The notes under the pieces were generated by a model. It made no database searches. It was given only the letters and a program-made list of their open reading frames with translations, and was not told where the DNA came from. A stretch of DNA of 64,000 bases from Haladaptatus paucihalophilus DX253 (lineage in GTDB: Archaea; Halobacteriota; Halobacteria; Halobacteriales; Haladaptataceae), in NCBI RefSeq assembly GCF_000376445.1, contig NZ_AQXI01000001.1, forward strand, positions 2,815,734-2,879,733, written 5' to 3'. The position numbers and the translations under genes are program-made. Every line of letters starts with the position of its first letter. Positions within the stretch are counted from its first letter, which is position 1. Shown in pieces: positions 60,057 to 63,861 of this stretch.

Positions 60057-60770
60057 CTAGCCGATGACGTTCCGCGGTATCCACGTTCCGCGGTCGGTCC
60101 GCTCCATCGGGAGCACGGGGTCGCCGCCGCGGAGTTGCGGCCGAATCCAGTCGTGCGTTTCCACGGTTCCGTTCCGGACTTCCGTCCCGTCGTCCGCGAC
60201 GGGCGTGATTCCCACGTCCCGAATCGCGTCCACCGCGACCGTTCCTTCGAACTCCCGGATGCCCTCGAACGCGATGAACCGGCCGGTGTCGCCGCCCCAC
60301 GTCAGTCCGACCGCGGCGAGCGCGCCGATAACGCCGTCGCCGGTGCCGCCGTACTCGTCGAGAAAGAGTCCGACCTCCTCGGCCAGCGCGTACGCGTCGG
60401 CTTTCTCCAGCACGTCGTTCTGCGCCGATTCGCCGAATCGACGAACCGCATCGGTGACGTCCGCTCGGAACGCCACGCACAGTCCGGGGTCGGCGTTCGG
60501 AGCCTGCACGCTTTCGAGATAGTCACCGGTGAGCGCCGCCGCGCCCTTGACCGACGGTTCGGCGGAACAGTCGAAGACGAGACACGCCGCGCTGTTGTGG
60601 GTCGTGTACGGGACGCGCGGGTCCACCAGCAGTTGTTGTCGAACGCTCCCGTACAGTTCGATGCCGTCGATTTCGTCGGCCAGTCGGGTCGCCAATCGCC
60701 GACTGACTTTCCCGGTGCCGAGTTCGCTGTCGAGGTCGTCGGTGTCGTCGATGGCGACCAGCAGTTGCAT
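60057..60770 (-). CDS. TiaS-like (tRNA 2-agmatinylcytidine synthetase-related) protein, short form
   Basis: A 237-residue protein. N-terminal LVAIDDTDDLDSELGTGKVS has the DDTD motif of TiaS, the archaeal enzyme that adds agmatine to C34 of tRNA-Ile2. Further matches are LVFDCSAEPSVKG, a GLCVAFR strand and EYGGTGDGVIGALAAVGLTW. TiaS is about 420 residues and ends in an OB fold and zinc ribbon; both are absent here. The protein may be a related enzyme with another substrate. Its gene stands 60 bp from the ABC substrate-binding gene, divergently. Confidence 0.7.
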   Translation of the reverse strand: MQLLVAIDDTDDLDSELGTGKVSRRLATRLADEIDGIELYGSVRQQLLVDPRVPYTTHNSAACLVFDCSAEPSVKGAAALTGDYLESVQAPNADPGLCVAFRADVTDAVRRFGESAQNDVLEKADAYALAEEVGLFLDEYGGTGDGVIGALAAVGLTWGGDTGRFIAFEGIREFEGTVAVDAIRDVGITPVADDGTEVRNGTVETHDWIRPQLRGGDPVLPMERTDRGTWIPRNVIG

Positions 60771-60830: not shown

Positions 60831-62555
60831 ATGGAGAAACAACGGTCGCGACGGCGGTTTTTGCGGCGGACGCTCCCCGGCACGCTCGGCGTGTCGCTGC
60901 TCGCGGGGTGTTCCGGGTCGAAGGGAACGGACACGACGACCTCGACCGACGCGGATAGCTCGAAAGGAACGACCACGACGAGCGACTCCGGGTCGGAAGA
61001 CGCAGGCGGCGGCACGCGGACCGTGACGGACGCCGCCGGACGGGACGTGACCGTTCCGGCGAGCGTCGAGCGCGTCGTCGGGTTGGGGCCGGGTGCGCTC
61101 CGGTTCATCACGTATCTGGGCGCGACGGACCGCGTGGTCGGCGTCGAGCGACTGGAGACGAAGAACGAAAAGCGTCCGTTCAGGCCGTACGTTCTCGCCC
61201 GTCCCGAACTCCAGGAGCTCCCGTCCGTCGGGTCCCGGAAGAGTCCCGACCCGGAGTTGCTCCTCGAACGCGACCCGGACCTCGTCGTTCGGGCCTACGC
61301 GAGCGCGAAAAAGGCCGACGGCCTGCAGAACAAACTCGACACGCCGGTCGTCAGCATCAATCCGGGCGATTTGAACGACGCCCTCCGCCCCGACTTCTAC
61401 GACTCGCTCCGACTCGTCGGCGAGGTGCTGAACGAGAAGAAACGCGCGGACGAACTCGTCTCGTACACGAAAGAGACGATTTCGGACCTGAACGGGCGGA
61501 CGGCGGGCGTTTCGAACCCGCCGAAAACCTACGTCGGCTATCTCGGCCGCGGAAAACACGGCTTGCTGTACACGCAACCGGAGTACCCGCCGTTTTCCTT
61601 CGTCGGGACGAACAACGTCGCGCGCGACGTGACGGACGGGTTGAAGAAAAAGAAGGGTGCACCGCGCGTCACCATCGACGCGGAACAACTCATCAAGTGG
61701 GACCCCGAGTACGTCTTCGTGGATTTGGGGACCGAATCCTACGACGACCTCTCGAAATCGGAGTACGAATCCATCGCTGCCGTCGAGGAGGGCAACGTGT
61801 TCGGCGTCTTCCCGACGCGCGATTACTCCATCAACTTCGGGACGGCGCTGGCTGACGCCTACGCCGTCGGGACGGCCTGTTTCCCCGACCAGTTCGGCGA
61901 CATCGACCCGGCGAAGAAGGCGGACGCCATCTACGAGCGGTTCGTCGGCGAGCCGGTGTACGACGAAGCGGCGGCGGCGTACGGCGACGGATTCGGTCGG
62001 ATGAACGGCGGACAGGGAGGAACCGGTACGAGATGGAAGAATCGATCGAACCGGCGGTCCTCTCCCGGTACCGCAAACGGACGCGGAGAAAGCTCGCGTT
62101 CATCGTCGGCCTCGGCGTCGCGCTCGTCGTCGTGGCCGGGTACGCGCTCGTCTCCGGCCCGATTTCGGTGCCGCTCTCGGAACTGCCGTCGATACTCCTC
62201 GGGCGGTCGTCGGGCGTCCACGCGACCGTCATCTGGAACATCCGACTGCCGCGAATCGTCGCCGCGGTCGGCGCGGGCCTCGGCCTCGCCATCGCGGGTG
62301 CGGTCCTCCAGAGCGTGCTCCGGAATCCGTTGGCCTCGCCGTACACCCTCGGCATCTCGCAGGCGGCGTCGTTCGGCGCGGCGTTCGCCATCATCGTCCT
62401 CGGAACCGGAGCGGTGCGGGACAGCGGGACCACGGTGCTCCTGCACAATCCCTACACGACGACGGTCTGTGCGTTCCTCGCTTCGCTCGGGTCCACGGGG
62501 TTCGTCCTCGCCGTGGCGAAGTACAAGCGGGCGTCCGCCGAAACCCTGCTCCTGA
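60831..62555 (+). CDS. ABC transporter substrate-binding lipoprotein (BtuF/FepB-type), stop codon lost
   Basis: Residues 1-401 are the real protein: Tat-like SRRRFLRR and lipobox SLLAGC (Cys27), a Ser/Thr/Asp-rich linker to residue 62, then a helical-backbone binding protein (RTVTDAAGRDVTVPASVERV, VGLGPGALRFITYLGATDRV, DPDLVVRAYASAKKADGLQN). At codon 402 (62034-62036) the frame reads TGG, exactly where an ATGA overlap with the permease start would give TGA. Without that stop the frame runs on for 172 codons across the permease gene in another frame; this Arg/Ser-rich tail is not haloarchaeal in composition. It should deliver a cobalamin, siderophore or haem-like ligand. Confidence 0.88.
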   Translation: MEKQRSRRRFLRRTLPGTLGVSLLAGCSGSKGTDTTTSTDADSSKGTTTTSDSGSEDAGGGTRTVTDAAGRDVTVPASVERVVGLGPGALRFITYLGATDRVVGVERLETKNEKRPFRPYVLARPELQELPSVGSRKSPDPELLLERDPDLVVRAYASAKKADGLQNKLDTPVVSINPGDLNDALRPDFYDSLRLVGEVLNEKKRADELVSYTKETISDLNGRTAGVSNPPKTYVGYLGRGKHGLLYTQPEYPPFSFVGTNNVARDVTDGLKKKKGAPRVTIDAEQLIKWDPEYVFVDLGTESYDDLSKSEYESIAAVEEGNVFGVFPTRDYSINFGTALADAYAVGTACFPDQFGDIDPAKKADAIYERFVGEPVYDEAAAAYGDGFGRMNGGQGGTGTRWKNRSNRRSSPGTANGRGESSRSSSASASRSSSWPGTRSSPARFRCRSRNCRRYSSGGRRASTRPSSGTSDCRESSPRSARASASPSRVRSSRACSGIRWPRRTPSASRRRRRSARRSPSSSSEPERCGTAGPRCSCTIPTRRRSVRSSLRSGPRGSSSPWRSTSGRPPKPCS

Positions 62556-63103
62556 CCGGCATCGCGCTCGCGTCGCTGTTCACGGCCGGAACGACCGCGA
62601 TGCAGTATTTCGCCACGAACGTCCAACTCGCCACGCTCGTCTTCTGGAAGTTCGGCGACGTGGGAAGCGCGACGTGGAAATCGAACGCCTTCCTCTGGCT
62701 TTGCGTCGTCCTCGCCACGCTCTACTTCGTGCGGAACGCGTGGGAGTACAACCTGCTCGACGCGGGCGACGAAACCGCTCGAAGCCTCGGCGTCAACGTC
62801 GAACGAACGCGCCTGTCCGGGATGGTGGTCGCGTCGTTCCTGACGGCCGTCGTCGTCTCGCTGTTCGGCATCATCGGCTTCGTCGGTCTCGTGGTACCGC
62901 ACATCGTCCGGCGACTCGTCGGCGGCGACGAGCGATTCCTGATTCCCGCGTCCTGTCTCGGCGGGGGTGCCCTCCTCCTCGCGTCCGATACGGCGGCCCG
63001 GACGCTCCTCTCGCCCATCGTCCTGCCCGTCGGCATCATCACGTCCTTCATCGGCGTCCCGCTCTTCGTCTACCTCATCGTCAACGGGAGAGACCACTGG
63101 TGA
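62033..63103 (+). CDS. ABC transporter permease (FecCD/BtuC family)
   Basis: A 356-residue protein with about 10 membrane helices. Family features are LPRIVAAVGAGLGLAIAGAV, the NPLASPYTLGISQAASFGAA motif (Q-x-x-x-x-N-P-L-A-x-P-x-x-LG-I), GDVGSATWKSN and GIIGFVGLVVPHIVRRLVGG (the EAA-like coupling loop GFIGLxxPHxxR). It works with the binding protein upstream and the ATPase downstream (4-bp overlap). The ATG lies inside the upstream gene's open frame. The substrate is not set by sequence. Confidence 0.93.
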   Translation: MEESIEPAVLSRYRKRTRRKLAFIVGLGVALVVVAGYALVSGPISVPLSELPSILLGRSSGVHATVIWNIRLPRIVAAVGAGLGLAIAGAVLQSVLRNPLASPYTLGISQAASFGAAFAIIVLGTGAVRDSGTTVLLHNPYTTTVCAFLASLGSTGFVLAVAKYKRASAETLLLTGIALASLFTAGTTAMQYFATNVQLATLVFWKFGDVGSATWKSNAFLWLCVVLATLYFVRNAWEYNLLDAGDETARSLGVNVERTRLSGMVVASFLTAVVVSLFGIIGFVGLVVPHIVRRLVGGDERFLIPASCLGGGALLLASDTAARTLLSPIVLPVGIITSFIGVPLFVYLIVNGRDHW

Positions 63104-63861
63104 GCATCGAACTTGACGGACTGGCGGTCGGGTACGACGGGACGCCCGTCCTCGAAGACGTGACGCTCGGCGTCGAACCGGGCGAGGTGCTCGCCGTCCT
63201 CGGCCCGAACGGCGTCGGCAAGAGCACGCTTCTCAGGACGATTCTCGGCCTGCAGTCGCCGATTCGCGGGAGCGTCGCGCTCGACGGCGACTCGCTTTCC
63301 GACCTCTCCCGCGACGAAATCGCGCGGCGCGTCGGCTACGTGCCACAGCAGGAATCCACGACCGTCCCGTCCACCGTGTTCGACGCGGTGTTGATGGGGA
63401 GAAAGCCGTACCTCGATTGGCGGCCGACGGAGGAGGACAAGCGGCGCGTCGCGGCGGTGCTCGACTCGCTCGACATCACCGAGTTGGCGATGCGGAACCT
63501 CCACGAACTCAGCGGCGGGCAGCGCCAGAAGGTCATGCTCGGCCGCGCGCTCGCGCAAGACCCGTCGTCGCTCGTCCTCGACGAACCGACGAGCGACCTG
63601 GACATCCGCCACGAACTCGACGTGCTCGAACTCGTCCGGCGGACGAGTCGGGAGGGCAACGCCGTCGTCTACGCCATGCACGACATCAACCTCGCCGCGC
63701 GGTACGCGGACCGGTTCCTGTTGGTCGCCGACGGCGAAGTCGTCGCTCTCGGCGATGGGTCCGTGCTGACGCCGGAACACGTCGAACGCGTGTTCGACGT
63801 TCCGGTTCGACTGGTCGAGGACGAAACCCCGATTCTCGTTCCCGAACGCGGCCGGGACTGA
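63100..63861 (+). CDS. ABC transporter ATP-binding protein (FecE/BtuD type)
   Basis: A 253-residue ATPase from the GTG at 63100, overlapping the permease stop by 4 bp. Walker A GPNGVGKSTLLRTIL, Q-loop YVPQQESTTVP, signature HELSGGQRQKVMLGRALAQD, Walker B SLVLDEPTSDLDIRH and H-loop VVYAMHDINLAARYADR. The VPSTVFDAVLMGRKPYLDW segment after the Q-loop is typical of iron-complex and cobalamin importers. It completes a three-gene uptake system with the two genes upstream. The longer frame from 62674 lies out of frame within the permease gene. Confidence 0.94.
   Translation: MSIELDGLAVGYDGTPVLEDVTLGVEPGEVLAVLGPNGVGKSTLLRTILGLQSPIRGSVALDGDSLSDLSRDEIARRVGYVPQQESTTVPSTVFDAVLMGRKPYLDWRPTEEDKRRVAAVLDSLDITELAMRNLHELSGGQRQKVMLGRALAQDPSSLVLDEPTSDLDIRHELDVLELVRRTSREGNAVVYAMHDINLAARYADRFLLVADGEVVALGDGSVLTPEHVERVFDVPVRLVEDETPILVPERGRD

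Follow-up and report, generated by a model that had tools for sequence, protein, structure and literature searches.

Loss of a stop codon is a described origin of recent de novo C-termini, in which a protein acquires a tail encoded by the downstream sequence, as set out in the available text of PMC4494051. Among the titles listed by a literature search, none pointed to an archaeal precedent. The locus analyzed here lies in a 64,000-nucleotide stretch of the Haladaptatus paucihalophilus DX253 genome (the window), which is haloarchaeal in character, as its GC content is 65% and the relatives found by the searches are haloarchaea. Three plus-strand genes at 60831-63861 encode a binding lipoprotein, a FecCD permease and an ABC ATPase, and the haloarchaeal BtuFCD/FecBCD-type operon of Natribaculum luteum (MU558_RS21645-21635) matches them in gene order, strand and families. 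The conserved part of the substrate-binding lipoprotein gene (60831..62003, plus strand, residues 1-391; Peripla_BP_2 PF01497, 3.5e-18) encodes a leader with a twin-arginine-like RRRFLRR motif, a lipobox (LAGC) at residue 24 and a closing YGDGFGRM. The FecCD/BtuC-type permease gene (62033..63103, plus strand; FecCD PF01032, 1.1e-89) is intact and is followed by the ATPase gene (63100..63861, plus strand; ABC_tran PF00005, 8.6e-35). Direct inspection of the sequence revealed that the ATPase gene overlaps the permease stop in a GTGA at 63100-63103. A Peripla_BP_2 protein with a lipoprotein signal and FecCD and ATPase genes downstream of it identify the locus as a BtuCD/FecBCD-type ABC importer operon. 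Its substrate may be of the corrinoid, iron-siderophore or haem type; NCBIfam models for corrinoids, siderophores and haem match the operon, each below its cut-off. The best NCBIfam matches of the permease are BtuC models (217.9 bits against a cut-off of 334), the corrinoid ATPase model scores 227 against a cut-off of 537, and the operon proteins stay below the curated equivalog cut-offs for a vitamin B12 (corrinoid) importer. The gene just upstream (60057-60770, minus strand) encodes a TiaS-like protein of 237 aa, whose similarity to tRNA(Ile2) agmatinylcytidine synthetase is confined to the N-terminal part of that enzyme and stays below the curated cut-offs. A second binding-protein/FecCD/ATPase cluster is found elsewhere in the genome (L002:76-3137), with its binding-protein gene on the strand opposite to the permease and ATPase genes.

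The binding-protein gene does not stop at its natural end. Its frame runs from the ATG at 60831 to 62555 and encodes 574 aa. The sequence at 62033-62036 is ATGG, so that the permease ATG at 62033 overlaps a TGG codon (W402, 62034..62036, plus strand) in the binding-protein frame, as a prior reading of the sequence alone had noted. The next in-frame stop is the TGA at 62553-62555, and the extension in between (62034..62555, plus strand) is indeed out of frame with the permease gene that it overlaps. This sequence-only reading had described a basic tail of 172 residues; the basic character holds (44 R+K against 5 D+E, pI 12.0, compared with pI 4.8 for the mature binding protein), while the length counted from W402 is 173 residues. 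The tail is rich in Arg and Ser. To judge its length, 5000 shuffled permease genes were generated that encode the same protein with the codon usage of the operon. The median open length in the tail frame of these null genes was 86 codons, and at least 173 codons were open in 44% of them (P = 0.44). The open length of 173 codons is what high GC content gives by chance, and the 64 kb window, with its 150 ORFs of 150 aa or more, illustrates that long open stretches in wrong frames are usual at this GC content. Stops come earlier in the matching frame of the nearest relatives, and a Pfam search with the 173-residue tail gave no match; with its chance length, these results led to the rejection of the tail as a conserved domain. 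The unusual feature of the locus is the missing stop itself and not the length of the tail.

The related loci compared came from several families within the order and from two plasmids of Natribaculum. This set comprised 33 loci, 32 of them distinct because L065 repeats L037. All 33 possess a stop of their own, located 0-27 residues past the end of similarity and just past the conserved C-terminus, which makes the missing stop peculiar to this assembly. The orthologues thus have a stop where the window gene has none (33/33), as expected for a stop-loss extension, and the loss proposed from the sequence alone is borne out. Absence of the stop shared by orthologues with a conserved tail would have spoken against it and occurs in none of the 33. 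In the tree, the window protein belongs to a clade of 12 rows (support 100/100), consisting of this protein and 11 others that include one identical pair. All 11 other members have their stop 1-4 codons past a GFGx[LM]-like motif, with its first base 5-14 nt ahead of the permease start. The GFGRM of the window protein (M at 62001-62003) corresponds to GFGKL, GFGRL, GYGPM and GFGSM in relatives, and homology, at 56-57% identity to the nearest orthologue, ends at residues 391-393. Since homology is in frame through GFGRM, the frame is right up to this motif and no upstream frameshift is needed; a frameshift inside the binding-protein gene was rejected as the main reading on this ground. Gene decay was likewise rejected, as internal stops and a long branch are both absent. 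At 0.47, the branch of the window protein is similar in length to that of its neighbor (0.39), so any decay of the gene has not gone on for long.

The comparison also bears on the idea that the extension is functional, or that ribosomal frameshifting at the junction yields a fusion of binding protein and permease, which is regarded as highly improbable. With the permease frame free of stops between the two genes, the two proteins would be fused by a -1 slip, but the junction (62001-62040) shows no slippery run and none of the 33 related loci has a tail or a fusion. The tail lacks a family match, and joining an exported lipoprotein to a BtuC-type permease at its N-terminus, which is expected to lie in the cytoplasm, would be topologically awkward. 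That a basic-tailed lipoprotein of 574 residues or a low-level frameshifted fusion is kept for tethering to the transporter or for tuning permease translation is accordingly given hardly any credence.

The search for close relatives covered a sample of 392 genomes from the order, the families of the three best hits (146, 125 and 170 genomes), the own family for the permease (28 genomes), GTDB contigs and plasmids. The best relative across this search was 56-57% identical, and none of the 27 other genomes of the family yielded the operon. Its nearest relatives are spread among three other families of the order, and one relative operon is located on a plasmid of Natribaculum luteum, adjoining transposase genes. 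This sporadic distribution, including a plasmid copy, suggests horizontal spread. For Natribaculum luteum NZ_CP095398 (L065:4001-4996), the annotated start of the binding-protein gene (4052) falls within the homologous region, and a longer frame of 388 aa with an export signal is probably the real gene.

The stretch between the conserved part and the permease gene (62004..62032, plus strand) contains no stop in the binding-protein frame and probably served earlier as the intergenic leader of the permease gene. A Shine-Dalgarno-like GGAGG (62016-62020) precedes the permease ATG by 12 nt. The ten codons at 62004-62033 (codons 392-401) have G or C in the third position in 5/10 cases compared with 0.87 in the operon (binomial P = 0.005), none of the 382 ten-codon windows of the conserved part is as low, and the rare codons GGA, GGT and AGA are among them. 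The stops of the orthologues fall in the interval that corresponds to this linker. Taken together, the low GC3, the GGAGG and the position of the orthologous stops indicate that codons 392-401 are probably a former leader with a non-coding-like codon make-up. This evidence is moderate and not decisive, since the ribosome-binding motif itself would explain some of the rare codons. A promoter and terminator scan gave no match with a bacterial consensus, which is of doubtful use for this archaeon. The most likely position of the lost stop is between codon 392 and the start of the permease gene. Six codons in 62010-62036 are one substitution away from a stop, namely GGA 62010, CAG 62013, GGA 62016, GGA 62019, AGA 62031 and TGG 62034, and the lost stop is not placeable to the base, as the nearest relative is only 56-57% identical and the search of the 27 other family genomes did not find the operon.

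The sequence-only reading had placed the original stop at codon 402, in an ATGA overlap at 62033-62036 that became ATGG. Junctions of the ATGA type do exist in distant relatives (L004, L006, L051, L052, L054, L055 and L057), and the next junction of the window operon is GTGA. Two other such overlaps had been counted in the operon; there is just this one, between permease and ATPase, and the gene upstream is on the other strand. However, ATGA junctions occur only outside the clade, and all 11 nearest relatives have a stop and then a spacer. An ATGA ancestor would also make codons 392-401 coding, in spite of their low GC3 and their rare GGA, GGT and AGA codons. TGG had been singled out as a near-stop codon, but the five further codons in 62010-62036 are equally close and codon 402 does not stand out. 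The change from ATGA to ATGG was rejected as the best reading because of the relatives' junctions and the codon make-up of the linker, and is considered unlikely.

The missing stop reflects either stop-codon loss of an ordinary kind or an error of sequencing, and it calls for no new mechanism. The preferred reading, to which a probability of roughly 0.55 is assigned, is that the first gene of this uptake operon has truly lost its stop in this strain; this value and the weights of the competing readings are judgements and not computed values. A less likely but still plausible reading is that the strain has an ordinary stop and that the consensus contains one wrong, missing or extra base. Among the loci compared the stop is absent from this assembly only, the binding protein is otherwise intact, and five linker codons as well as TGG are each one substitution from a stop. 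A length error of one base just before 62002 would put the TGA at 62002-62004 in frame, but it would take the conserved M (62001-62003) out of frame. As neither of the other two frames has a stop between 62004 and 62700, a length error located after 62004 would not supply one there. Mainly a substitution, or a short length error upstream of 62002, would thus suffice, and fewer kinds of error would explain the missing stop. The genome is also nearly complete in 6 contigs, which speaks against an error. In this one assembly, a real loss and a consensus error would look alike.

If the stop was truly lost, it would have stood in or just before the short leader that carries the permease ribosome-binding site, as in the 11 nearest relatives, and a small mutation in this region would have removed it. 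The ribosome would then run 173 codons into the permease gene, which GC-rich permease genes would allow as they are often open in a neighboring frame, and would terminate normally at the TGA at 62553. The predicted product is a lipoprotein precursor of 574 residues whose Arg/Ser-rich tail is probably unstructured and likely to be trimmed or degraded. The permease and the ATPase are intact and would probably still be translated from their own starts. With frame, start and GGAGG intact, permease translation has probably not been abolished and would be either reduced or unaffected. Destabilization of the lipoprotein and interference with the permease, as proposed from the sequence alone, are conceivable consequences. 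The second binding-protein/FecCD/ATPase cluster could relax selection and make the defect tolerable. A real loss would represent a natural example of an operon with a first gene that no longer has its stop and would be useful for studying archaeal initiation at a start codon overrun by elongating ribosomes; otherwise the result would be a flag for one position of the assembly. The missing stop has no bearing on any larger open question.

Compared with known systems, the nearest BtuFCD/FecBCD-type relatives are 53-57% identical to the window operon in the binding protein and 66-67% in the permease. Their binding-protein stop precedes the permease start by 5-14 nt, whereas the window gene lacks a stop. 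In the C-terminal extensions described in the available text of PMC4494051, non-coding sequence turned coding, whereas the predicted tail in the window is the wrong frame of a gene.
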